Source: Eubacteriaceae bacterium
GTDB taxonomy: Bacteria; Bacillota; Clostridia; Lachnospirales; Lachnospiraceae
Assembly: GCA_902362875.1 (NCBI GenBank)
Contig: CABIYF010000014.1
Location: forward strand, 1 to 64,000
Direction: 5' to 3'
Length of the DNA: 64,000 nt
Program-made: the position numbers and the translations under genes
In this document: positions 29,240-64,000 of the stretch, in pieces
How positions within the stretch are numbered: position 1 is the stretch's first letter
How the letters are laid out: each line of letters starts with the position of its first letter
The notes under the pieces: generated by a model
Told to the model about the DNA's origin: nothing
Seen by the model: the letters and a program-made list of their open reading frames with translations, nothing else
Database searches by the model: none

Positions 29240-31219
29240 TTATTTTTTCTTAGTCTTTAAGTTCTTTGCAGATGACCAAGAAGCACGTAAAGTTGTATTC
29301 TTATTATCAACTTTTACAGTTCTTACGGCTCTGACTCTTACATAATACTTCTTATTCTTTTTAAGTTTTGTTAAAACTTTAGAAGAAGATTTAGAAGAAA
29401 CTTTTACAGTTTTTGCACCTTTAAAGCTCTTAGATGTACCATACTGTACTTCGTAAGAAGTAGCGTTAGCGACTTTGCTCCAAGAAGCTTTTAAGGATGT
29501 CTTTTTCGCTTTGCTTAATTTAACAGTTGTCTTAGCAGGTGCTTTCGCATTGATCTTGTAAGTTAATTTCTTTGTACCTGTGTAGTTTTTACCATTAAAT
29601 TTAACAGTTGCTGTGTAAGTTCCAGGTTTTTTACTGTTGGAGTTAGAGTAAGATACTGTGTAATTGCTTGCTGCGATTGTTTTGTTGGCAGAATCTTTTG
29701 CTACAACAGTAGCTTTCTGAACTTTTCCATTTTCTGTGAAAGATGTTTTGTTTAATGCGATAGATTTAATCTTGGCAATTGTTGTTGTACTCTTAACATC
29801 ACCACAGTTAGAGCATTTTACTACGATAGAACCATCTTTAGATGTTGAAGCTGGTGTAGTAATTGTTTTGTAATCTTTCTTAGTGACAGCTTTCATGGCA
29901 GCTGTTAAATGAGATGTACACTCTTTCACAGAACCAGAATAGATAACTTCATCTTTTAAAGCATCAACAGCTTCACCAAGTTCTGTGTCAAGATCTGTCC
30001 AAGCTTTGTCCTGTCCATCACAGTAAGAATCTTTGTCAGCTTTCATAGCATTTGCCTGATCGATCAGTTTCTGAAGATCAGCTTTTTCAGTATCTGTTGC
30101 TTCTTTAGCATTTGCGATATTGTCACCAGTAGCCTGAACATTGAATGAGAAGTCCTCATATCCAAGAGCAGAAATAGTAAGTTTCCAGTAACCAGTTCCA
30201 TCATAATCTTCAGGTAACTGACAACGAATAGATTCTGTTAAACCAAGCTGGATTCCCATAGATTTGTGCATCCAGTTGTCAGCAGCAAATTTAGTACCAT
30301 AAGTAGCTAATGGTTTAGAATATGTATCATCATATCCATAGTATGTCCATGTAACAGCCTGCATATTTGAACCAAGATCTCCATAAGCATCACCATTAAG
30401 ATCGACACGTAAAAACTCGCCATAAGAACCTGCACCAGGTTTGACCTCAACAGTAATCTTATCAGAATCCACTTTCTTGATGGCAGCATCTTTTAAACCA
30501 GATTCAGAACCAGTTTTGCGAGCGCTGAAAGAGAAAGTTCCATCAGAGTTTTCTGTAGCTGTTTTTAAACCATTTGTATTTGCTGTTACATTTGCAGTTG
30601 CAGTATAAGCAGATAAATTCACTTCGCTGTAACCACCAGTTAAAGTACCACCATTTTCAACAACCTGATATTTGGCTTTTAAATCATTTAACTGAGAAGT
30701 TTTAACAGCTACAGGAACATACTTAATACCAGAAACTTCATAATGAGACATTGTATAAGTATTTCCGTTATCAGTAATATTTCCTTTATTCCAGCTGACA
30801 GATGAACCGTCTGTTAAGTAGATTGTTTTACCATCATCAGACCAGTGGGAAACTTTATACTCAGGACCAGTTTTACCATCTGCATCTGTAGTAAAGATGG
30901 TAGCCATGCACTGATAGCTTCCACGATGTAATCCATGTTTTGCTGTTGCTCGAGTAACAACATCATATCCACCTTTATCTGATTCTTTTTTAGAATCTAA
31001 AACATCTGAGCTAGAAGCATCACCCGCATTATAAACATCTTCATGTGCCCAATACTCAGCCCAAGTAAGACCAACATAACAATAAGTCCATTCATCAGCC
31101 TGATCAGCTTTAACAATATGAGCCACATTAAAGATGTTAGCAGTCACAGGAGTAGCTGTGAAAGCCATAGCACCAGTCATGGCAACTGCAAAAGCTTTAC
31201 CAATTAATCTTTTACGCAT
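29240..31219 (-). CDS. Secreted Tp47-like penicillin-binding protein with Fn3
   Basis: 659 residues. The signal peptide (about 1-38, signal peptidase I type, no lipobox) is followed by a region (about 43-365) whose landmarks match the Treponema pallidum Tp47 penicillin-binding lipoprotein as I recall it: VVTRATAKHGLHRG (87-100), IKYVPVAV (165-172), TNGLK and FSARK (215-235), YYGYDDTY and YGTK (293-310), and GYWKLTISALGY (343-354). A helical spacer (370-450), a CSNCG-containing beta unit (about 450-560) and a fibronectin type III domain (about 565-650) follow, ending in a Lys-rich tail that could hold it to the wall. No sortase motif is present. It is monocistronic, with its own promoter and a shared terminator. 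Role in peptidoglycan or beta-lactam handling is inferred from the family. Confidence 0.8.
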   Translation of the reverse strand: MRKRLIGKAFAVAMTGAMAFTATPVTANIFNVAHIVKADQADEWTYCYVGLTWAEYWAHEDVYNAGDASSSDVLDSKKESDKGGYDVVTRATAKHGLHRGSYQCMATIFTTDADGKTGPEYKVSHWSDDGKTIYLTDGSSVSWNKGNITDNGNTYTMSHYEVSGIKYVPVAVKTSQLNDLKAKYQVVENGGTLTGGYSEVNLSAYTATANVTANTNGLKTATENSDGTFSFSARKTGSESGLKDAAIKKVDSDKITVEVKPGAGSYGEFLRVDLNGDAYGDLGSNMQAVTWTYYGYDDTYSKPLATYGTKFAADNWMHKSMGIQLGLTESIRCQLPEDYDGTGYWKLTISALGYEDFSFNVQATGDNIANAKEATDTEKADLQKLIDQANAMKADKDSYCDGQDKAWTDLDTELGEAVDALKDEVIYSGSVKECTSHLTAAMKAVTKKDYKTITTPASTSKDGSIVVKCSNCGDVKSTTTIAKIKSIALNKTSFTENGKVQKATVVAKDSANKTIAASNYTVSYSNSNSKKPGTYTATVKFNGKNYTGTKKLTYKINAKAPAKTTVKLSKAKKTSLKASWSKVANATSYEVQYGTSKSFKGAKTVKVSSKSSSKVLTKLKKNKKYYVRVRAVRTVKVDNKNTTLRASWSSAKNLKTKKK

Positions 31220-39017: not shown

Positions 39018-39052
39018 GGACAGGAGAATGAAAGTTTTCCTGTTCTTTTTTT
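39018..39052 (+). terminator. Rho-independent terminator after purB
   Basis: GGACAGGA (39018-39025) pairs with TCCTGTTC (39038-39045), with G-T pairs, followed by eight T and T-rich sequence. Confidence 0.75.
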
Positions 39053-39165: not shown

Positions 39166-39223
39166 GAATAAAAGGACACTTTAAAGGGACAAAATAAATT
39201 TGGGGAAAGAGGAAACACAAAAT

Positions 39224-41089
39224 ATGGGAGACATCAGACAGACAATAAAGAGAAAAAAATGGAATATGATTTTAGGGGCTTTGGATATATTGATGATGAT
39301 AGCAGCAGCTTATCTGGCATTACTGACCAGATTTGAATTCTATCCATCCAAAGTAGCATTGGTATTTTTGAAATCTGTATTTCAATATATGCCATTAAAT
39401 CTTTTCTGCAGTATCTTGATTTTCATGGCATACAAATTATATTCTACTCAATGGAAATATGCAGGGATATCAGATTTTGTAAATGTGATCAAATCAGTAT
39501 TTATATCATCTGTATTTCAGCTGATTGGTATTTCAATGTTACGCTGGGAGATACCAAGAAGCTACTTTTTCCTGTATCTTGTATATCTGATGCTTGGCAC
39601 ATTCTTTATTCGATTGTTAGTGCGTCTGATCCAGGGAAAAGAACCGCTCAGGATCAAAGATACTAATAAGAAAAAAGTATCCGTGATGTTAATTGGAGCT
39701 GGAGAAGCAGGAAACATCATTTTAAATGAGATCAAGAAAAGTGCATATGTCAACAAGTCTATCAAATGTATCATAGATGATAATCCGGCAAAGAAACATA
39801 CATATTTATCAGGTGTTCCCGTGGTTGGAAACCGTCATACGATTATTCGAAATGCGATCAAATACGATATAGAAGAGATTATTCTGGCAATTCCTACATT
39901 ATCCGCAAAAGACCGCAAGGAGATTCTGGAGATATGCAAACAGACAGGATGTCATTTAAGTATTCTTCCAGGACTTTATCAGTTGATCAACAGTGAAGTA
40001 ACGGTATCATCTTTAAGAGAAGTTGAGATTGAGGATTTACTTGGAAGAGAACCAGTGAAAGCGAACCTTCCATCCATTATGAATTATGTCAAAGACCAGA
40101 TTGTGTTTGTAACCGGAGGGGGCGGATCGATCGGAAGTGAGATCTGCAGGCAGGTAGCAAGATACAAGCCGAAGAAACTAGTGATCATTGACAACTACGA
40201 GAATAATGCATATGAGATTCAGATGGAATTAAAGAGAAAACATCCGGAATTAGACTTGAAAGTGTTGATCTTATCTGTCCAGAATCATTTGAGAATGCAT
40301 AATATTTTTCAGGATTACAAACCAGATATTGTATTTCATGCGGCAGCACATAAGCATGTGCCATTGATGGAAGACAGCCCGCATGATGCGATTAAGAATA
40401 ATGTCTTTGGAACATTTAATGTCGCCCAAGAAGCAGGATTAAGCGGTGTAAAAAGAATGGTATTGATTTCCACAGACAAAGCAGTCAGACCAACCAATAT
40501 CATGGGAGCATCCAAGCGAGTGTGCGAGATGGTGATCCAGTACATGAACACACAGTATGACACAGAGTATGTGGCGGTGCGCTTTGGAAATGTATTGGGA
40601 AGCAATGGAAGCGTTGTACCATTATTTAAGAAACAGATCGCTAATGGAGGTCCGGTAACCGTGACACATCCAGAGATCATCAGATATTTTATGACGATTC
40701 CGGAGGCAGTAAGTCTGGTACTGGAAGCAGGAGCTTACGCTAAAGGAGGAGAGATCTTTATTCTTGATATGGGAGAACCAGTTAGGATTTTAGATCTTGC
40801 AGAGAATATGATCCGTTTATCAGGACTGATTCCAGGGGAAGATATTGAAATTCAGTTTACTGGCTTAAGACCAGGAGAGAAACTATATGAAGAACTTCTG
40901 ATCGACGAAGAGAATAAAAAAGAGACAGAGAACAAACGAATCTTTATTGGAAATCCAAAGATGATGCCGCCAGAGCAGTTTGGCAAACTGATCGCTGAAT
41001 TAGATCATGCAGCATTTTCAGAAGATCCAAGGATTCGGGAAGTTGTAAAAAAACTAGTTCCAGAATATACATATCAGCAGACAAAATGA
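39224..41089 (+). CDS. UDP-GlcNAc 4,6-dehydratase, membrane type (PglF/CapD-like)
   Basis: About 621 residues. Four N-terminal membrane helices (to about residue 115), a Rossmann-like regulatory domain with VMLIGAGEAGNII, then the dehydratase domain: NAD motif FVTGGGGSIGSEICRQ, HAAAHKHVPLMED and the catalytic STDKAVRPTNIMGASKR, with Met and Lys replacing the usual Tyr-x3-Lys as in WbpM/PglF. It converts UDP-GlcNAc to the 4-keto-6-deoxy sugar. The ATG at 39224 is preferred (AGAGGA upstream), but a TTG at 39200 has AAAGGGA and cannot be excluded. It opens the cluster and is followed 17 bp later by the matching aminotransferase. Confidence 0.9.
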   Translation: MGDIRQTIKRKKWNMILGALDILMMIAAAYLALLTRFEFYPSKVALVFLKSVFQYMPLNLFCSILIFMAYKLYSTQWKYAGISDFVNVIKSVFISSVFQLIGISMLRWEIPRSYFFLYLVYLMLGTFFIRLLVRLIQGKEPLRIKDTNKKKVSVMLIGAGEAGNIILNEIKKSAYVNKSIKCIIDDNPAKKHTYLSGVPVVGNRHTIIRNAIKYDIEEIILAIPTLSAKDRKEILEICKQTGCHLSILPGLYQLINSEVTVSSLREVEIEDLLGREPVKANLPSIMNYVKDQIVFVTGGGGSIGSEICRQVARYKPKKLVIIDNYENNAYEIQMELKRKHPELDLKVLILSVQNHLRMHNIFQDYKPDIVFHAAAHKHVPLMEDSPHDAIKNNVFGTFNVAQEAGLSGVKRMVLISTDKAVRPTNIMGASKRVCEMVIQYMNTQYDTEYVAVRFGNVLGSNGSVVPLFKKQIANGGPVTVTHPEIIRYFMTIPEAVSLVLEAGAYAKGGEIFILDMGEPVRILDLAENMIRLSGLIPGEDIEIQFTGLRPGEKLYEELLIDEENKKETENKRIFIGNPKMMPPEQFGKLIAELDHAAFSEDPRIREVVKKLVPEYTYQQTK

Positions 41090-41106: not shown

Positions 41107-42240
41107 ATGAAAGAACGTATTTATATGGCATCACCAACGATGCATGGGGAAGAACAAAAATTTGTGCAGGAAGCGTTTGACACCAATTGGATCGCACCAC
41201 TTGGCCCAAATGTAAATGGTTTCGAACGTGAGATGGAACAATATACAGGAATTGCCCATTGCAGTGCATTAAGTGCAGGAACAGCAGCACTGCATCTGGC
41301 AATGAAATTACTAAAAGTCGGGGAAGGAGATACTGTGATATGTCCTTCGCTGACTTTTGCTGCAACTGTCAATCCGGTGGCATACGAAAAGGGAAAGATC
41401 GTATTTGTCGATTCAGAACCAGAGACATGGAACATGTCACCACAGGCACTAAGAAGAGCGTTAGAAGACCATCCAGAGACAAAGGCAGTTATTGTAGCAC
41501 ATCTTTATGGAACACCTGCGAAAGTAGATGAAATTCTGGCAGTCTGTAAGGAGTATAACGTTCCATTAGTAGAAGATGCTGCAGAAAGCTTAGGAGCAAC
41601 ATACAAAGGCATCCAGACGGGAAAATTTGGGGTTATTGCAGCATTTTCATTTAACGGAAATAAGATCATCACGACATCCGGCGGAGGAATGATCGCATCA
41701 GAGAATGAAGAATACATTAAACATGCAACATTTCTGGCAACACAGGCGAAAGAGCCAGTCAGACATTATGAACATAAAGAGATAGGATATAACTACAGAA
41801 TGTCCAATATTACAGCAGGAGTTGGAAGAGGGCAGCTTATTCATTTAGATGAACATATTGCAAAGAAGAAAGCAATTTATGAGACATATAAAGAAGCATT
41901 GAAAGACTATAAACATGTTCATATGAATCCATATGAAACATGCAGTGAGCCAAACTTCTGGTTATCCTGTATGACGCTTGATGAATCATGCGGTGTAAAA
42001 CCATTAGATATCATTGAAGCATTGGAGGCAGAGAACATCGAAAGCCGTCCAATCTGGAAACCATTACACAAACAGCCAGTGTTTGAAGGCTGTGAATTTT
42101 ATTCCCATTATGAGAATGATGAGAAACCAGTATCAGAAGATATTTTTGACCGCGGATTATGTCTTCCAAGCGATATAAAGAACACAAAGGAAGATATGGA
42201 AAGGATCATAAAGATCATAAAGTCCGTATTAGACCGATAA
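41107..42240 (+). CDS. DegT-family sugar aminotransferase (PglE-like)
   Basis: 377 residues, PLP-dependent. Opening MASPTMHGEEQKFVQEAFDTN is typical of UDP-4-keto-6-deoxy-GlcNAc aminotransferases. PLP contacts include SAGTAALHLA, VEDAAESLGATYKG and Lys186 in FNGNKIITTSGGG, close to Lys184 of Campylobacter PglE as I recall it. It would aminate the product of the preceding dehydratase to UDP-4-amino-4,6-dideoxy-GlcNAc. GGGGATG provides the ribosome binding site. Confidence 0.88.
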   Translation: MKERIYMASPTMHGEEQKFVQEAFDTNWIAPLGPNVNGFEREMEQYTGIAHCSALSAGTAALHLAMKLLKVGEGDTVICPSLTFAATVNPVAYEKGKIVFVDSEPETWNMSPQALRRALEDHPETKAVIVAHLYGTPAKVDEILAVCKEYNVPLVEDAAESLGATYKGIQTGKFGVIAAFSFNGNKIITTSGGGMIASENEEYIKHATFLATQAKEPVRHYEHKEIGYNYRMSNITAGVGRGQLIHLDEHIAKKKAIYETYKEALKDYKHVHMNPYETCSEPNFWLSCMTLDESCGVKPLDIIEALEAENIESRPIWKPLHKQPVFEGCEFYSHYENDEKPVSEDIFDRGLCLPSDIKNTKEDMERIIKIIKSVLDR

Positions 42241-42264: not shown

Positions 42265-44508
42265 ATGTATCAAAAGTATATCAAACGATTTTTTGACATT
42301 ATATTGTCACTGTGCTGTATTATTTTATCCAGTCCGATCCTGCTTGTTACAGCACTGCTTGTAAGGATCAAATTAGGAAGTCCTGTGATCTTTAAACAGG
42401 AAAGACCGGGGTATCACAACGAAGTATTTACACTGTACAAATTCAGAAGTATGACAGATGCCAAAGACGAGAATGGAAATCTCCTTCCAGATAAGGAACG
42501 ACTGCCAAGGTTTGGACAGCTGCTGCGTTCGACAAGTCTTGATGAACTGCCGGAATTTTTTAATATTTTATTTGGACATATGAGTTTTGTAGGTCCAAGA
42601 CCACTATTAAAGCAGTATGTGGATTTCTACAGTGCCAGACAAAAACGGCGTGCCGACGTAAGACCAGGACTTACAGGTCTTGCACAGGTTAACGGACGAA
42701 ATGCGATCAGCTGGGAAGAGAAATTTGAATTTGACCTTGAATATGTGGACAGTATTTCATTGATCACAGATATTAAGATCATGTTTCAGACTGTAACAAA
42801 GGTACTAAAACGAGCAGGGATCAGCGCACAGGAATCTGTTACGATGTATGCATTTCAGGGAACGAAGAAGGGGCAGTTCTCAAAATATAAAAGAGATGGA
42901 CACATTAAGATTTTATTTTCCAGCGTCGGGGATCAGGTTGAATTCATCGATACATTCCGCTATGCGGCAGGAAAATTAGGAGTGAAAGTAACATTTGTCG
43001 GATGTGACCACTCTTTGGAAGCACCAGCATTGTATCGCTGTCATAAGCATTATCAGGTACCAGAACCAGGGGAAGAAGGATATATCACAGCACTGTTACA
43101 TATATGCAAACAGGAAAATATCGGTCTGATCATTCCAAGAACGGAAAAAGATGTATTTATTATGTCACAGAGAATCAGTGAGTTTGAAGCGATCGGAACT
43201 GAAGTACTGATCGCCAATGAAGAACTTGCAGTTCTTTGCAGCAATAAGCGCTGGACAGGTAATTTCTTTGAAGAGTGCGGACTAAATTGTCCAAAGATCG
43301 TGGACAAAGCACAAGATTATACGCAGGGATATCCTGCGATGTTTGCAGCATTGGATGCTATGGATAATCTGCAGCAAAGTATTATGGTTCACGATGAAAA
43401 AGAGTTGAATTTCAATGCATCAAAATACGATAATTACACGATCCGCCCATTTTTAAATGGAAAAATGTACGAGATCGATGTATTTTGCAATCCAGATGGA
43501 AGCCCGGTCTTTATCACACCAAGAGCCAAGGAAGATATTGAAGGCAAGGAAAGTGCAAGATACAGAGTGGTAAGAGACCATAAGATCGTAGAAGAAGTGG
43601 AAAAGATTCTTTTGAAGCTGAAACCGTGTGGATGGATGACCGTTTTTATGCTGCGTGAGGAAAATACAGACAAGGACTATTTTATCCGAATGGAACCTTG
43701 GTATCATCAGGCAAGTACAGTATCGATCAAAGCAGGGGCAGATGCACCATTTGCAGCACTTTCCATGATGCTTGGAGAGCCGCTTGCATACAAAGAAGAT
43801 GCAGCTGACGATAACGTGATCTTCACGAGATTTGAAAAAAGCGTATGTTTAAATACCAAAGAAGAACCTATCGTAGAGATACATGACTTCAAAGAACTGT
43901 ACCATCTGGATGATGCGATCGGTTCTGTAATCTTTGATCTTGATGATACTTTGTATTCAGAGAAAGATTATGTCCGAAGCAGTTTCCGTGTCGTAGAACG
44001 AATCCTTCCAGAGGTAAAAAACATTTTCAATAAGTTATGTGCAGCACTGGAAAAAGGACAGCCGCCATTGGAAACTGTATTAAAGGAAGCAGGAATCTAT
44101 TCAGATGAATTGCTTTTAAAATGCAGAGAAGCAATCAGAGATCACAAACCAGAGATTACATTATATGAAGGGGTTAAAGAGTTATTCTTTGAATTGCACA
44201 CACAAAAACGAAGCATCGGACTTTTGATCGATGGAACACCAAAAGTCCAGAGAGCTAAGATAGAAGCCCTCGGATTGGACAAAATGGCCGATGAGATTTT
44301 GATCACCGATGAGCTGGCTGGACACGGAAATGTTATGGAATTTCGAAAACCAAATGATCTACCATTTCTGATCATGAAAAAACGACTGGATGTTCCATGC
44401 AGGAATATGGCATTTGTGGGTGATGATATTGAGAAAGACTTTATTGCTCCAAGAGCATTAGGAATGGAGTGTTATTGGAAGAAAAACGAGGATGGGTTGT
44501 ATGAGTAA
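42265..44508 (+). CDS. PglC-like phosphoglycosyltransferase fused to ATP-grasp and HAD
   Basis: 747 residues in three parts. Residues 1-195: monotopic phosphoglycosyltransferase with one re-entrant helix (11-35), FKQERPGYHNEVFTLYKFRSM, catalytic Asp93-Glu94 in TSLDELPEFFN, SFVGPRPLL and RPGLTGLAQVNGRN. This predicts transfer of diacetylbacillosamine phosphate to undecaprenyl phosphate. Residues about 213-535: ATP-grasp-like fold (SVGDQ, GLIIPRTEKDVFI, GKMYEIDVFC), but the usual metal motif EINPR reads IRMEPW and the ATP lysine strand is not recognisable, so it may be inactive. Residues 552-747: HAD phosphatase with intact IFDLDDTLY (Asp558), LLIDGTP, FRKPND and FVGDDIEKDF. The frame is open with no internal signal for restart, so the fusion is real in this sequence. 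Confidence 0.88.
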   Translation: MYQKYIKRFFDIILSLCCIILSSPILLVTALLVRIKLGSPVIFKQERPGYHNEVFTLYKFRSMTDAKDENGNLLPDKERLPRFGQLLRSTSLDELPEFFNILFGHMSFVGPRPLLKQYVDFYSARQKRRADVRPGLTGLAQVNGRNAISWEEKFEFDLEYVDSISLITDIKIMFQTVTKVLKRAGISAQESVTMYAFQGTKKGQFSKYKRDGHIKILFSSVGDQVEFIDTFRYAAGKLGVKVTFVGCDHSLEAPALYRCHKHYQVPEPGEEGYITALLHICKQENIGLIIPRTEKDVFIMSQRISEFEAIGTEVLIANEELAVLCSNKRWTGNFFEECGLNCPKIVDKAQDYTQGYPAMFAALDAMDNLQQSIMVHDEKELNFNASKYDNYTIRPFLNGKMYEIDVFCNPDGSPVFITPRAKEDIEGKESARYRVVRDHKIVEEVEKILLKLKPCGWMTVFMLREENTDKDYFIRMEPWYHQASTVSIKAGADAPFAALSMMLGEPLAYKEDAADDNVIFTRFEKSVCLNTKEEPIVEIHDFKELYHLDDAIGSVIFDLDDTLYSEKDYVRSSFRVVERILPEVKNIFNKLCAALEKGQPPLETVLKEAGIYSDELLLKCREAIRDHKPEITLYEGVKELFFELHTQKRSIGLLIDGTPKVQRAKIEALGLDKMADEILITDELAGHGNVMEFRKPNDLPFLIMKKRLDVPCRNMAFVGDDIEKDFIAPRALGMECYWKKNEDGLYE

Positions 44509-45169
44509 GGAAAAGAAGATCAGACCGATCGTGATCGTAGGAGCCGGAGGTATGGGAAGAGATACCCAGTGGCTGATCGAACGGATCAATGAATCAGATC
44601 AACAAGAAAAGTATGAGATACTCGGTTATATAGATGATGGGATCAAAGCAGGGACAATGATTGATGATCACCCTGTTCTTGGTGGAATTGATTATCTTGT
44701 CAATCAGCAGGAACAGCTGTCAGTTGCATTTGCATTAGGCAATGTGAAGGTCCGAAAGAAACTTATAGAAAAGTGTATAGAAAATCCGAATCTCACTTAC
44801 CCAAATCTTATAGATCCATCTGTTATTATGTCTGAAAGAATTATGATCGGACAAGGAAATATTATCTGTACTTCTGTGATCATGACGACCAATATCTGGA
44901 TTGGAGATTTTAACCTGATCTGTAACAGAAGTATTGTCGGACATGATGACAGAATTGGAAATTATAACACACTTTATCCGGGAGTCCTGCTTTCTGGGAA
45001 TGTAAGAATCAGTACATTAACAGAGATAGGAACAGGAAGCCAGATCATACAAGGCTTGCGCATCACCGACGAGGTGACCGCAGGTGCAGGAAGCACGATC
45101 ATCAAAGATATAGATACACCGGGAACTTATGTAGGAAGTCCCGTAAGAAGAGTAAATTATGAAGAATAG
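44501..45169 (+). CDS. Sugar O/N-acetyltransferase (PglD/NeuD-like)
   Basis: 222 residues. An N-terminal Rossmann unit (IVIVGAGGMGRDTQWLI, YEILGYIDDG) binds the UDP-sugar, and a C-terminal left-handed beta-helix binds acetyl-CoA. IVGHDDRIGNYNTLYPGVLLSGNVRI carries the catalytic histidine, His148 from this start. It should acetylate the 4-amino group to give UDP-N,N'-diacetylbacillosamine. The ATG at 44501 overlaps the upstream gene by 8 bp, with GAGG before it. Its product would feed the phosphoglycosyltransferase encoded just upstream. Confidence 0.87.
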   Translation: MSKEKKIRPIVIVGAGGMGRDTQWLIERINESDQQEKYEILGYIDDGIKAGTMIDDHPVLGGIDYLVNQQEQLSVAFALGNVKVRKKLIEKCIENPNLTYPNLIDPSVIMSERIMIGQGNIICTSVIMTTNIWIGDFNLICNRSIVGHDDRIGNYNTLYPGVLLSGNVRISTLTEIGTGSQIIQGLRITDEVTAGAGSTIIKDIDTPGTYVGSPVRRVNYEE

Positions 45170-46253
45170 AAAGATATTAATTTTAGCAAATTTAGATGTA
45201 GGATTATACAAATTCAGAAAGGCACTGATCAAAGAATTATTAGATCAGGAAAATGAAGTTTATATTTCCCTGCCGAAAGGAATGCTGGTAGAGAAGCTTG
45301 AAGAAATGGGCTGTCATTTTATTGAAACACCTGTTGACCGCAGAGGGATCAACCCAGTGACAGACTTTAAATTAATTCTGCAATATTTAAAAATCATGAA
45401 AACAATCCGCCCAGATCAGGTGATCACCTACACGATCAAACCGAATATCTATGGTGGACTTGCAGCAAGATTAAAGAGAATACCATATGCAGTCAATATT
45501 ACAGGATTAGGAACAGCATTTCAGAGTGAAAATATGATCAAAAAACTGGTCGTATTTCTATACAAACTGTCATGCAAAAAGGCTAAGACAGTATTCTTTG
45601 AAAATGCCGAAAATAAACAGGTATTTCTAAGCAATAATATCATCAAAGATTCACAGACATGCCTTCTGCCAGGCGCAGGAATTGATCTGAATGAATATGA
45701 AATGACACCATATCCAGAAGAATCAAGAAACATCAGATTCTTATTCATCGGACGAGTGATGAAAGAAAAAGGAGTCGAAGAACTGTTTAAAGCAGCAAAG
45801 AACATCAAGAAGATATATCCGGAAGCGTCTTTTGATATTGTCGGACCAATGGAAGACGATTACAAAGACAGAATTCATTCTTTAGTCAGAAACGGGATCA
45901 TCTATTATTACGGATATCAGGAAGATGTAAAACCATTCATCAAGAAATGCGACTGTTTTGTACTGCCGTCATACCATGAAGGAATGGCAAATACTCTGTT
46001 AGAATCCGCAGCCCTGGGAAGACCATTGATCACGAGCAGGATACATGGATGTATGGAGGCAGTCAATGAGGGTGAGAACGGATATCTGGTAGATGTAAAA
46101 GATGCCAGAGGTCTGGAAGAGAAGATGAAGGAGTTTATTGATCTTTCCTATGATGAGAAGAAGATGATGGGTGAGAAGTCACGAGAAGTGATGGTTGAGA
46201 AGTTTGATAAGGTGGAAGTTGTTGGGATGACAATAGAAGGACTTGAGAGATGA
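45159..46253 (+). CDS. GT4 glycosyltransferase (PglA-like)
   Basis: 364 residues, GT-B fold. N-terminal domain: ILILANLDVGLYKFRKALI, VDRRGINPVTDFKL and TYTIKPNIYGGLAARL, features of the PglA/WbpY-type enzymes that add the second sugar to lipid-linked bacillosamine. The C-terminal domain has FIGRVMKEKGVEELF and the EX7E motif HEGMANTLLESAALGRP. It overlaps the upstream acetyltransferase by 11 bp. HexNAc, probably GalNAc, is the expected donor by family. Confidence 0.85.
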   Translation: MKNRKILILANLDVGLYKFRKALIKELLDQENEVYISLPKGMLVEKLEEMGCHFIETPVDRRGINPVTDFKLILQYLKIMKTIRPDQVITYTIKPNIYGGLAARLKRIPYAVNITGLGTAFQSENMIKKLVVFLYKLSCKKAKTVFFENAENKQVFLSNNIIKDSQTCLLPGAGIDLNEYEMTPYPEESRNIRFLFIGRVMKEKGVEELFKAAKNIKKIYPEASFDIVGPMEDDYKDRIHSLVRNGIIYYYGYQEDVKPFIKKCDCFVLPSYHEGMANTLLESAALGRPLITSRIHGCMEAVNEGENGYLVDVKDARGLEEKMKEFIDLSYDEKKMMGEKSREVMVEKFDKVEVVGMTIEGLER

Positions 46254-46274: not shown

Positions 46275-47384
46275 TTGAGTATTTATTGGTTGTTTTTAGT
46301 ATTAGCGACAATTATATGTTTTTGGAATGAATCAAGCAGTAAAATAGTATGGAATGGCAGAAGATATCAAAGGAAAGCGTATTGGAGCCAGGCAATTATC
46401 TTTTTTGCAGTTGTGATTTTTTTCTGTGGATTAAGAAGTGGAATTGCAGATACAGGAACATATATACAAATGTTTAAAAGCTATCCATCTAGTATATTTG
46501 GAATCCATTTAGATGATATCAATAAAGATAAAGGATTTTTTATTATATCAGTTCTTTATAAACAGTTTATCTCAACAGATTTTCATGGATGGCTGTTTTT
46601 AATGGCTCTGATTTCAGGTGTTGCATTAATGTTAGGCTTGATGAAATATTCAGAATATTTTGGATTAAGTTGTTATTTATTGATTGTGGGAACAATGTTT
46701 ACCTATTTTGTAAATGGTATGCGGCAATTTGTTGTTGTTACAATATTTTTTTATGCAACATACATGATCTTGGAAGGAAAATGGACGAAATATGTAATTT
46801 TAATTCTTTTACTTTCTACAATTCATGGTTCGGCATTGATATTATTATTGGTGTATTTCTTAAGAAATGTGAAACCATGGGGTTCTCAAATGAGAATGGT
46901 TATGTTTTTATCTCTGATTGCAGGAGTAGGTTTTGATAAGCTATTCCCTTTGTTTGGAAATTTTTTGGCAGAAACACAGTATAAAGGTTATGTTGATTAC
47001 ATTTCATCACAGGGAAGAGGAAGTAGTGTTATTCGACTGGCAATTGCAGTGATTCCTTGTGTGATAGCATATATGGCACGATATGCGATTGAAGAAGAAA
47101 ATAATAAACTTATAAATTTCAGTATTAATATGTCAGTCATCAATTTTTGTTTATATATTATAGCGACATTCTCCAGTGGAATGGTAGTTGGAAGGCTTAC
47201 AACATATTTTGATATTTATAATCTGATACTGCTTCCTTGGTTGATGCATCATGCATTTACACAAAGGAGCAGAAAAATCGTAATCTTATTGTGCATGGCA
47301 TTTTATTTAGTATTTTTCTATTTCCAGATGGTACTGACATGGGGGTTAGGCTACGAAAGTGATATTTTACATTTATATATATGA
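46275..47384 (+). CDS. EpsG/Wzy-like polysaccharide polymerase
   Basis: 369 residues, at least nine hydrophobic segments with few charged loops. GLRSGIADTGTYIQMFK after the second helix is the EpsG-family pattern. It starts at TTG (46275) seven bases after AGGAAGG; no ATG is available before the first helix. It would join undecaprenyl-linked repeat units outside the membrane. Base composition is more A/T-rich than in the flanking genes, as is usual for polymerase genes in variable clusters. Confidence 0.82.
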   Translation: MSIYWLFLVLATIICFWNESSSKIVWNGRRYQRKAYWSQAIIFFAVVIFFCGLRSGIADTGTYIQMFKSYPSSIFGIHLDDINKDKGFFIISVLYKQFISTDFHGWLFLMALISGVALMLGLMKYSEYFGLSCYLLIVGTMFTYFVNGMRQFVVVTIFFYATYMILEGKWTKYVILILLLSTIHGSALILLLVYFLRNVKPWGSQMRMVMFLSLIAGVGFDKLFPLFGNFLAETQYKGYVDYISSQGRGSSVIRLAIAVIPCVIAYMARYAIEEENNKLINFSINMSVINFCLYIIATFSSGMVVGRLTTYFDIYNLILLPWLMHHAFTQRSRKIVILLCMAFYLVFFYFQMVLTWGLGYESDILHLYI

Positions 47385-58163: not shown

Positions 58164-59684
58164 ATGGGACAAAAAAAAGTTAATGAGTTAAAAGTTGGAT
58201 CAATTATTACATACATAAATTTGATCATCAGTACAATTATACCATTATTGTATACACCAATTATGCTTAGGATTCTAGGGCAGGAAGAATATGGATTATA
58301 CAGCTTATCAAATTCAGTGATCAGTTATTTGACATTATTAAACTTTGGTTTTGGTACTGCGATCATACGATTTATATCAAAATTCAGAGTAGAAGGAGAT
58401 CATGAAAAAATAGAAGGGGTTACAGGATTGATTCTTTTTATTTATGCGATCATAGCAGTGGTTGTCTGCATTATCGGATTTTTACTGACAAAAGGAACCG
58501 GTTTATTTTTTGGAACAGGATTAAATGGAAGTGAAATACAGCGATTAAAGATATTAATGATCATTATGACAGTCAGTACAGCAATTTCATTCCCGGTAAG
58601 TGTATTATCGTCTGTATCAATTGCTTATGAAAAATATATTTTCCGTAAAATGGTTGATATGGTAGCTACAATTGCGGCACCAATCTTAAATCTGTTTGTA
58701 TTATTTATGGGATATGCATCTATTGGATTGGCAATGATCGGATTGATCACACAGGTTCTTTATGGAATCATCTTCACACTGTATTGTAAGCAGAAATTAA
58801 ATATTGTGCCAAGATTTAAAAATATGCCATTTTATATGGCTAAAGAAATTTTGGGATTTTCCGTATATGTTTTTGCAAGTTCGATTATCGATATGCTGTA
58901 TTGGGCAACAGATAAAGTATTGATCGGAGCAGTTTTAGGAACTGTTGCGGTAGCAGTTTATAATATCGGTGGAACGTTTACTGCAATGCTGCAAAATATG
59001 TCATCAGCAATCAGTGGAGTTTTCGGAACCAGGGTCAATATGATGGTTTTTGGAAATCAGCCAATGGAGAAGTTGTCAGAATTATTAATCAGAATTGGAC
59101 GATTGCAATATTATATTGTTTCATTAATTTTGTCAGGTTACATTGTATTTGGACAGATATTCATTGATGTATGGGCTGGAAAAAGTTATTCTCAGGCATA
59201 CGTTATTGGTTTACTGACGATGGTTCCATTAGCTGTTCCATTAATTCAAAGTATTGCTTTTTCAGTAATTTCAGCACAGAATAAATTGAAATTCAGAACA
59301 ATTGTATATGCAGTTATTGCGGTATTAAATGTCATAGGAACAATTCTAGTTATGCCAAAATTCGGAATCATTGGAGCAGCAACGTGTACAGCAGTGGCTT
59401 TCGTTGTAGGAAATGGAATTTTGATGAACTGGTATTATTGGAAAGTTATTAAACTTGATATCGTAAGTTTTTGGAAAAACATTTTAAGAATCAGTATTGT
59501 TCCAGTTATTATGATTGTTGCAGGAACAGCAGCACTTCGAGTAATTGCGATAAAGAATCTTTGGATGGTATTGATCTTAGGAATCATCTATGTAGCATTA
59601 TTTGGAATCGCTTCATGGATCTTAGAGATGAATGTCTATGAGAAATCTTTGGTAACTGGTATGTTTCATAAGATTAAGAGATAA
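58164..59684 (+). CDS. Wzx-type polysaccharide flippase
   Basis: 506 residues with 12-14 membrane helices. The start LKVGSIITYINLIISTIIPL and ILGQEEYGLYSLSNSVISYL are standard for the polysaccharide-transporter branch of the MOP superfamily. Matching helices recur in the second half (SVYVFASSIIDMLYWATDKVL). It would flip the undecaprenyl-linked repeat unit to the outer face for the EpsG-like polymerase. Confidence 0.9.
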   Translation: MGQKKVNELKVGSIITYINLIISTIIPLLYTPIMLRILGQEEYGLYSLSNSVISYLTLLNFGFGTAIIRFISKFRVEGDHEKIEGVTGLILFIYAIIAVVVCIIGFLLTKGTGLFFGTGLNGSEIQRLKILMIIMTVSTAISFPVSVLSSVSIAYEKYIFRKMVDMVATIAAPILNLFVLFMGYASIGLAMIGLITQVLYGIIFTLYCKQKLNIVPRFKNMPFYMAKEILGFSVYVFASSIIDMLYWATDKVLIGAVLGTVAVAVYNIGGTFTAMLQNMSSAISGVFGTRVNMMVFGNQPMEKLSELLIRIGRLQYYIVSLILSGYIVFGQIFIDVWAGKSYSQAYVIGLLTMVPLAVPLIQSIAFSVISAQNKLKFRTIVYAVIAVLNVIGTILVMPKFGIIGAATCTAVAFVVGNGILMNWYYWKVIKLDIVSFWKNILRISIVPVIMIVAGTAALRVIAIKNLWMVLILGIIYVALFGIASWILEMNVYEKSLVTGMFHKIKR

Positions 59685-61752: not shown

Positions 61753-62424
61753 ATGATTCTCTATCATGGTTCAAAAGATATCATAGAAAGACCAATTTAT
61801 GGACAAGGAAAAAAATATAATGATTATGGATTAGGATTTTATTGTACAGATAATATAGAATTAGCCAAAGAATGGGGAACTAGCTTTGAAAGAAGTGGAT
61901 ATGCAAATCGATATCAGATAGATTGTACAGGATTAACAATTCTTGATTTAAATGATGATAAATACTGTATTTTACACTGGTTGGCAATTCTTTTATCTAA
62001 TCGGGAATTTGATACGCCGGCAGGATTAGCGTTAGAAGCAAAAGAATTTTTAAAGAAGAATTTTATGTTAGATTATAAAAAATATGACATTATAAAAGGA
62101 TATCGTGCAGATGATAGTTATTTCTCATTTGCACAAGATTTTATTAATGGTACGATTTCATATCGTCAGTTAAATAATGCGATGCATTTAGGAAAATTAG
62201 GAATACAATATGTATTAAAAAGTAAAGAAGCGTTTAATAGAATTGTTTTTGATGGTTATGAAGAAGCAGATTATAAAGAATGGTATGCGAAAAAAATGAA
62301 GAGAGATAAATCTGCTAGAAGAGAGTATTTTGATGTAGAGAGAAATAGAAGACAGAGGGGCGATATTTACATTACGCAAATCTTAGATGAGGAGATGAGT
62401 CCAGATGACAAACGCTTACGATAA
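61753..62424 (+). CDS. DUF3990 family, ADP-ribosyltransferase-like protein
   Basis: 223 residues. ILYHGSKDII opens the domain; DYGLGFYCTDNIELAKEWG follows. These match the His and Tyr positions of the H-Y-E group of ADP-ribosyltransferases, to which DUF3990 has been assigned. LGIQYVLKSKEAF is the likely third strand, with Gln where PARP-like enzymes have Glu. The C-terminal third (about 175-223) is highly charged and helical. GAGGTG precedes the ATG. The next gene overlaps by 20 bp, suggesting a two-gene unit such as a toxin-antitoxin or effector-immunity pair; this is inference. Confidence 0.75.
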   Translation: MILYHGSKDIIERPIYGQGKKYNDYGLGFYCTDNIELAKEWGTSFERSGYANRYQIDCTGLTILDLNDDKYCILHWLAILLSNREFDTPAGLALEAKEFLKKNFMLDYKKYDIIKGYRADDSYFSFAQDFINGTISYRQLNNAMHLGKLGIQYVLKSKEAFNRIVFDGYEEADYKEWYAKKMKRDKSARREYFDVERNRRQRGDIYITQILDEEMSPDDKRLR

Positions 62425-62842: not shown

Positions 62843-62886
62843 TTAAGTTCCAATAGCTCATAAAAAGAAAGAGGTGAATGTACACA

Positions 62887-64000
62887 ATGGATAAAGAAAA
62901 ATTAAAAACAACATTACAAATCGGTGAAACAATAGCCGTAGAATTCAAAAGATGCAGCAATCGAATTGAAAATGATGTATATCAAAGTGTATGTTCTTTT
63001 CTAAATCGCTTTGGTGGGGATATCTATCTTGGTGTTGAAGATAATGGAACTGTCTGTGGTGTCCCAGAAAAGGCAGCAGGTGACATGATAAAAAATTTTA
63101 TAAAGGTTATCAGCAATCCTAATATGTTTACACCAACAATATATTTAGTACCAGAAATTATAAATTATGAGGGAAAAACAATCATCCATATTCACATACC
63201 AGTCAGTGCGGAAGTACACAGCTTTAAGAAAGAAGTCTATGACAGAGTAGATGATGCGGATGTAAAAGTTACAGCAACTGCACAACTTGCAATGATGTAT
63301 ATTAGGAAACAGAATATATTTACAGAGAAACGTATTTATCCATATATTTCATTGGAAGACTTAAGATTAGATTTATTGCCACGGATCAGAAAAATGGCAA
63401 CAAATAATATTGAAGGTGTGCATAGCTGGGAAAGCATGAATGATGAGGAATTATTAAGAAGTGCGGGATTATATGGAAAGGATCGAGCAACAGGAGAAAG
63501 TGGATATAATCTGGCAGCGGTTATGTTATTAGGGAAAGATGATCTGATTATGGATATTTGTCAGATAAATTTTTCATAGAGGGAGTAGAGCGAAAGAATC
63601 TGAGAAATATTATAACGAGAGAAATGATTGCGAATACATTGATTCATAGAGAATTTACAAGTGCATATACAGCTAAATTTGTAATAGAAAAAGATAAAAT
63701 GTATACAGAAAATGCAAATCGATCATCAGGAGATGGGGTTATTACGCCTGATAATATGGAACCAAATCCGAAGAACCCTATTATTGCATCATTTTTCAGG
63801 AATATAGGATGGTCTGATCGTTTAGGTTCTGGAGTAAGAAATACATTTAAATATTCTAAATATTATTCAGGAGAAGAACCAGAATTTATTGAAGGGGACG
63901 TATTTCGAATTATTGTGCCATTAAATGAAGAATATTCGTACGATAATACAAAGGATGGCAGTATTGATGAGCTTAAGAGAGAAGTTGAAGAAAGATTAGA
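62887..64000 (+). pseudogene. AlbA_2/COG2865 ATP-binding protein, deleted and frameshifted
   Basis: The first frame (62887-63579) encodes an AlbA_2/Schlafen-type N-terminal domain: ETIAVEFKRCSNRIENDVYQ, SFLNRFGGDIYLGVEDNG and the following beta strands, then DLIMDICQ. It then hits TAG after a few foreign residues. In the +2 frame from 63564 the family continues, DKFFIEGVERKNLRN, REMIANTLIHREFTSAYTA, NPIIASFFRNIGWSDRLGSG and EGDVFRIIVPLNEE, open to the window end. In intact relatives roughly 45 residues normally separate the two blocks, so an internal deletion with frame change has occurred. GAGGTG precedes the ATG at 62887; an ATG at 62878 is too close to it. Confidence 0.8.

Follow-up and report, generated by a model that had tools for sequence, protein, structure and literature searches.

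In the diNAcBac pathway, the 4-amino sugar is acetylated by PglD. Neisseria PglB is described as an acetyltransferase/phosphoglycosyltransferase (PGT) (PMC11130364), and Neisseria PglB2 appears in excerpts of two papers as an ATP grasp/phosphoglycosyltransferase held responsible for a glyceramido-acetamido trideoxyhexose (PMC11130364, PMC6959607). The bifunctional monotopic PGTs (Bi-PGTs), in which an extra domain is fused to the PGT core, form a named class according to an extract of PMC10942596 (citing O'Toole 2021b). PGT fusions such as the Bi-PGTs and PglB2 are already known; what is new in the locus described here is a double tail that is inactivated and yet seems to be under selection. 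No paper pairing an ATP-grasp with a phosphoglycosyl transferase or PglC was found in the literature reached, which was mostly without subscription journals, and the fusion may already have been reported.

The locus lies in a window of 64,000 nucleotides from a Eubacteriaceae bacterium (contig CABIYF010000014.1), in which a single open frame (42265–44508, + strand) encodes a fusion protein of a PGT, a pseudo-ATP-grasp and a HAD domain, 747 aa in length, as delimited by the ORF and by Pfam and NCBIfam profile matches. Like PglB2 as described in those papers, the protein carries an ATP-grasp C-terminal to a PGT and belongs to a pathway with a 4,6-dehydratase and an aminotransferase; unlike PglB2 as so described, the window has an extra HAD, a degenerate ATP-grasp and a separate PglD. 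With Neisseria PglB and with PGT-PglD fusions such as P0175 and P0177, which carry PglD_N, it shares a PglC-like PGT joined to an enzyme of the 4-N-acylating step, although the partner is a hexapeptide acetyltransferase in those proteins and ATP-grasp-HAD in the window. As in the Bi-PGTs, the PGT core is fused to a further domain; however, the Bi-PGT partners are called functional domains, whereas the second part of the window protein, without ATP-grasp catalytic residues and with one HAD motif lost, looks non-catalytic as far as its sequence tells. Campylobacter concisus PglC (structures 8e37 and 8g1n) is 52–56% identical to the window PGT over the aligned part but lacks the tail. Separate ATP-grasp-HAD proteins of about 540 aa are direct homologues of that tail (P0029, for example, is 43% identical over 98% of it), yet these are unfused and intact at the scored catalytic residues, whereas the window tail is fused and degenerate.

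The initial annotation had read the frame as one 747-residue protein joining a PGT, an ATP-grasp-like region and a HAD, and the single ORF with its Pfam domains bears this out. Relatives of 747 aa recur in the protein database, so the frame is not a local frameshift, and an assembly artefact or read-through is likewise ruled out. They include P0002 (747 aa, 100% identical to the window protein after rounding, 99 member sequences) and P0006 (747 aa, 87% identical over the tail, 13,101 member sequences). The PGT part (residues 1–200, 42265–42864, +) is a small monotopic PGT of the PglC kind: it contains a Bac_transf domain (PF02397, residues 7–182, 4.7e-61 in Pfam), it matches the Campylobacter concisus PglC structure 8e37 with a phmmer value of 1.1e-70, and its alignment to PglC includes the Asp93-Glu94 pair (42541–42546, +), which we take to be catalytic in PglC and which had rightly been called intact. 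Given its homology to PglC and its operon, the domain would load a diNAcBac-type sugar phosphate onto undecaprenyl phosphate and start a surface-glycan chain. A flexible linker is predicted at residues 187–210 (42823–42894, +), where pLDDT falls below 50 at 187–192 and 202–210. The fold-search matches listed cover the ATP-grasp and PGT parts, and the HAD is known here from its sequence.

The genes around the fusion follow the order 4,6-dehydratase, aminotransferase, fusion, PglD-type acetyltransferase, GT4-type glycosyltransferase and EpsG, all on the + strand. Briefly, the UDP-sugar 4,6-dehydratase of PglF/CapD type (39200–41089; Polysacc_synt_2 at 9.9e-123, plus CoA_binding_3), an operon partner of the fusion, is followed by an aminotransferase of the PglE/LegC type (41107–42240; DegT_DnrJ_EryC1 at 1.1e-97, TIGR04181 at 7.8e-113 but under cut-off), which would make the 4-amino sugar. 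The PglD/NeuD-type sugar N-acetyltransferase (44492–45169; PglD_N, and TIGR03570 at 174.8 bits against a cut-off of 160.8) probably starts at the ATG at 44501 rather than at 44492, and its overlap with the stop codon of the fusion suggests coupled translation. It is followed by a glycosyltransferase of the GT4 kind (45159–46253; best NCBIfam models stp2 and PglJ, under their cut-offs), a candidate for the next chain step, and by an EpsG-family protein (46275–47384; PF14897, 2.6e-43), a candidate polymerase. Beyond EpsG lie more glycosyltransferases, a hexapeptide acetyltransferase, a pyruvyl transferase and a candidate Wzx-like flippase (58164–59684, +; Polysacc_synt, 1.3e-18). A terminator-like stem stands just 5′ of the dehydratase (39018–39045), one of 5 such sites against a shuffle mean of 3.9, and a promoter scan stayed near chance (28 sites, shuffle mean 23.2).

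The ATP-grasp region (residues 214–531, 42904–43857, +) matches PylC-like_N in Pfam at residues 216–315 (2.1e-18) and the NCBIfam model PRK12767 (carbamoyl phosphate synthase-like) over 215–531, the latter under its cut-off. Residues 206–532 of the predicted structure match ATP-grasp structures; by this model the earlier assignment of residues 205–540 to ATP-grasp holds, and the possibility that they are not ATP-grasp is ruled out. The region had further been called degenerate, with its EINPR-like metal motif gone and no ATP lysine, and the alignment agrees: Ala361 (43345–43347, +) stands where active relatives have the ATP lysine (FIKP), and RMEPW at 475–479 (43687–43701, +) where they have EINPR, the metal-binding Glu and Asn being replaced by Arg475 and Glu477. 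The protein thus lacks the ATP-binding lysine and the metal-binding Glu and Asn of an active ATP-grasp ligase, and while it is a PGT-ATP-grasp fusion of the PglB2 type, its missing catalytic residues speak against an ATP-grasp competent for N-acylation. The earlier inference that the domain now binds rather than catalyzes is a reasonable one. These three residues are absent in all 28 degenerate triple-fusion rows among the matches listed and, being missing throughout the listed rows of the window's clade, were probably lost early; P0026, P0027 and P0030 are also without part of the middle of the ATP-grasp. Lys328 is kept in 27 of 30 triple-fusion rows among the matches listed, and Asp405 and Glu429 in most rows. 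When 27 clade rows were analyzed for replacements (leaving out P0014, a 436-aa fragment), 12 tail positions, linker position 205 not included, had been taken over by another residue that at least 80% of the rows share, among them Arg394, Glu403 and Arg432 of the ATP-grasp.

For the family as a whole, the best 120 of 638 matches to the tail (residues 200–747) and the best 120 of 1518 matches to residues 1–531 at E <= 1e-40 were listed from the protein database; both searches scored the 7998 candidates sharing most words, and the family counts are those of the listed rows. By length, 27 of the listed tail matches, the window included, are full triple fusions; 90 are separate ATP-grasp-HAD proteins of ~540 aa, and 4 belong to neither group. 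The search with residues 1–531 brings in double fusions of PGT and ATP-grasp as well as P0124 and P0125, two triple fusions whose ATP-grasp and HAD residues are intact. It also yields PGTs joined to other partners, namely PglD, GNAT, aminotransferase or glycosyltransferase domains. The view that these domains are known only as separate neighbors had therefore to be given up, since PGT fusions with ATP-grasp are frequent in the protein database and PglB2 is itself an ATP grasp/PGT. Among the matches listed, the ATP lysine and the EINPR Glu and Asn are lost in 28 of 30 triple-fusion rows and kept in 90 of 91 separate rows; the odd separate row (P0075, 424 aa, counted among the 91) falls inside the degenerate clade on the tree. 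The 28 degenerate rows, which include the nearly identical P0001 (the window) and P0002 as well as the fragment P0014, form one clade with a support of 1.0, in which three truncated PGT-ATP-grasp rows and P0075 are included as well. The double fusions retain the lysine in 52 of 53 listed rows when the short or truncated P0019, P0055, P0122 and P0123 are set aside. The tail is best read as the descendant of a two-domain ATP-grasp-HAD enzyme that is usually separate and usually intact. In genomes, the degenerate fusion was found five times (G001–G005) and is rare among the species genomes reached: screening of the genus (11 genomes), the family (397) and the genus of G005 (4) gave no further copy.

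The surroundings of PglC-like PGTs were surveyed by tblastn in 392 genomes of the order of G001 (locus L001, Anaerostipes), 62 of which held such a PGT at E <= 1e-55, in 64 places; an ATP-grasp-like 425-aa frame of L150 is not counted here. Within 3 kb of the PGT, a distance picked after the results were seen, 29 places had an ATP-grasp only, 17 a PglD only, 17 neither and one both (p 2.1e-5 by Fisher tests, which here and below ignore the relatedness of the genomes), and the sole place with both is L001, whose ATP-grasp is the degenerate fusion. The corresponding counts were 21, 15, 28 and 0 within 800 bases (p 0.0012), 29, 16, 18 and 1 within 1.7 kb, and 27, 21, 12 and 4 within 6 kb (both in L001, L172, L163 and L146; p 3.5e-5), or 20, 16, 9 and 4 at 6 kb when an aminotransferase was required (p 0.0012). 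An ORF-based count at 6 kb (28, 20, 13 and 3), which missed an ATP-grasp of L135 under an overlapping frame and counted L150, was replaced by the tblastn figures. Some of the places with neither had another acyltransferase-like neighbor, L173 with a GNAT and L160 with a hexapeptide protein being examples; at other places the scanned neighbors were glycosyltransferases or unrelated genes. In related loci, all 56 rows of unfused ATP-grasps have the lysine, 53 the Glu and 55 the Asn (the 56 rows are 54 distinct sequences, so some genomes are counted twice), and the fused ones keep the lysine in none of five. Lysine-intact ATP-grasps at or near the PglD position were seen in L007, L009, L011, L013–L016, L024, L035, L045 and many of L108–L147. 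A separate HAD gene comes right after the ATP-grasp in L008, L016, L114, L115, L116 and L117 and none adjoins it in Butyrivibrio (L011, L013–L015), so that pairing without fusion is frequent but not constant.

What chiefly points to the origin of the ATP-grasp is its location, at the site that PglD occupies in other operons. A ligase-fold enzyme in the place of PglD near a PGT would most simply perform the same step with another acid, and 4-N-acylation by the active ATP-grasp is the best reading by analogy with Neisseria PglB2, for which it has been proposed. ATP-grasp enzymes, sometimes with a HAD, seem to stand in for PglD in a good part of the Clostridia sampled, where surface sugars with a non-acetyl 4-N-acyl group would then be expected. 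In the explanation that we favor, and that as a whole we judge to be probable if only just, the window protein is a PGT starter enzyme whose tail comes from such a PglD-replacing ATP-grasp-HAD and has been kept as a non-catalytic module. The active ancestor would have taken the place of PglD by ligating a free carboxylic acid onto the UDP-sugar at its 4-amino group, its HAD perhaps freeing that acid from a phosphorylated precursor, e.g., glycerate from phosphoglycerate. In the window's clade, the ATP-grasp would then have lost its catalytic residues, with the HAD eroding differently from branch to branch. Acylation would be left to the separate PglD, which is encoded right after the fusion in the window and in two related loci. 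The tail, held by purifying selection, would most likely be a docking site that receives PglD, the aminotransferase or the product of these enzymes, or else a ligand sensor acting on the PGT. PglD lies directly 3′ of the degenerate fusion in the window, L001 and L003; as the L002 contig ends at that point, these are three of the five loci whose context can be read. Counting against this explanation, no PglD lies near the degenerate fusions of L004 and L005, and elsewhere in those genomes there are just matches of 25–30% identity; the four places with both genes at 6 kb and the 17 with neither at 3 kb weigh against it as well.

The HAD domain covers residues 552–740 (43918–44484, +; HAD_2 at 555–738, 4.1e-14 in Pfam; TIGR02253 at 552–740, under its cut-off). 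The initial annotation credited it with all four motifs and saw it as a phosphatase tethered to the PGT that could act on the lipid carrier or a donor precursor, or be a regulator. In the rival explanation that builds on this view, the HAD is still a working phosphatase, whose substrate may be the lipid carrier, a nucleotide sugar or a sugar phosphate, and the ATP-grasp is no more than a spacer. Motif I (FDLDDT, with the DxD nucleophile and acid Asp558/Asp560), motif III (FRKPND, Lys695) and motif IV (VGDDIEKDF, Asp720/Asp721/Asp725) are in place and would fit such an activity. Motif II, however, reads LLIDG, with Ile655 (44227–44229, +) where Ser or Thr is found in all 91 separate ATP-grasp-HAD rows among the matches listed, so the domain cannot be called intact, and an active tethered phosphatase working on the carrier or donor becomes the weaker reading. 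Five residues were scored: Asp558 and Asp560 of motif I, Ser/Thr at motif II, Lys at motif III and the first Asp of motif IV. By this score the HAD is complete in 88 of 91 separate rows and in both intact triple fusions, P0124 and P0125, against 2 of 28 degenerate rows, the P0014 fragment included, among the matches listed. On the tree of the degenerate clade, P0014 left out, the losses differ branch by branch: all six rows of the window's branch (P0001–P0006, of which P0001 and P0002 are nearly identical) share the Thr-to-Ile change at motif II, the motif III Lys has become Arg or Ala in P0007–P0013 and P0015–P0017, the first motif IV Asp is gone in P0018, P0021–P0025 and P0028, the nucleophile is Ala in P0020 and Glu in P0028, and P0026 has Asn for Asp560. 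Arg at motif III of HAD enzymes is sometimes tolerated, which also weighs against the explanation that we favor. Several of the motif IV losses leave the next Asp in place, and some changes may only weaken the enzyme, for which reason the domain is called eroded rather than dead. The two complete degenerate rows, P0027 and P0030, count against our preferred explanation, as the HAD may stay useful in some lineages, and the window's branch, nested in the Lys-to-Arg group with nearest sisters that have Arg, has a Lys that may be a reversion, which could mean that function matters. Weighing these points against the fixed motif II change and the losses in sister branches, we regard a working tethered phosphatase as unlikely.

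That the tail is a functionless leftover of a decaying fusion, heading for loss, is more doubtful still, even though catalytic residues are gone from both of its domains and P0026, P0027 and P0030 have lost part of the ATP-grasp. In the two close pairs to which the dN/dS test was applied, ATP-grasp and PGT change at similarly slow rates: the values for PGT, ATP-grasp and HAD are 0.057, 0.059 and 0.102 between the Anaerostipes copies L001 and L002, and those for PGT and ATP-grasp 0.027 and 0.020 between L004 and L005, where the HAD value could not be computed because synonymous differences are saturated. Over longer distances the ATP-grasp diverges faster, with identities to the window of 35–45% against 63–75% for the PGT and 55–65% for the HAD. 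All five genomic copies of the degenerate fusion are free of stops over the matched stretch, and this, with the low ATP-grasp dN/dS and the 12 positions replaced by other conserved residues, argues against simple decay; selection seems to keep the tail. The conserved replacements could also mean that the ATP-grasp chemistry was changed and not lost, Arg394, Glu403 and Arg432 together with the retained Lys328, Asp405 and Glu429 binding another substrate that is still converted. We find this very improbable in view of the universal loss of the lysine and the metal-binding Glu and Asn in the listed degenerate rows, the partial loss of the domain in P0026, P0027 and P0030, and the separate PglD of the window, L001 and L003. 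A tail that is kept with one domain catalytically lost and the other eroding suggests that it now guides or controls the starter enzyme, and a scaffold or sensor role would be the best remaining explanation. A more specific version of it, which is tentative and on the improbable side, makes the tail a double pseudoenzyme turned allosteric sensor or assembly platform: with its remodeled pocket it would bind PglD itself or a pathway metabolite (the 4-amino or N-acyl UDP-sugar, for instance) and hold back the PGT until acylation is complete, sugar being loaded on the scarce lipid carrier only then. Once a PGT has acted, undecaprenyl phosphate, which is scarce, is committed to a glycan, so that the regulation of PGTs is an open question in the field, and the fusion offers a natural case for telling tethered catalysis from scaffolding or sensing.

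Some further observations concern the wider family and the window. The P0006 cluster, with its 13,101 members, carries the fusion, which must accordingly be very abundant in some sampled environment. A PGT and an ATP-grasp-HAD lie nearby in the same frame at G926:C15:34981-37149 and G153:C43:11920-14118, with one or two stop codons within the match, an arrangement resembling a pre-fusion state. Other PGT partners include GNAT, another kind of acyltransferase (P0180, P0187 and P0192), aminotransferases (P0186 and P0195) and a GT2 domain (L149:8259-9971). Elsewhere in the window, a protein combining an fn3 domain with Tp47-type penicillin-binding domains (a and c) is encoded at 29240–31219 (−), and a DUF3990 protein (61753–62424) and a Schlafen/AlbA_2 protein (62878–63579) lie directly past the glycan cluster.
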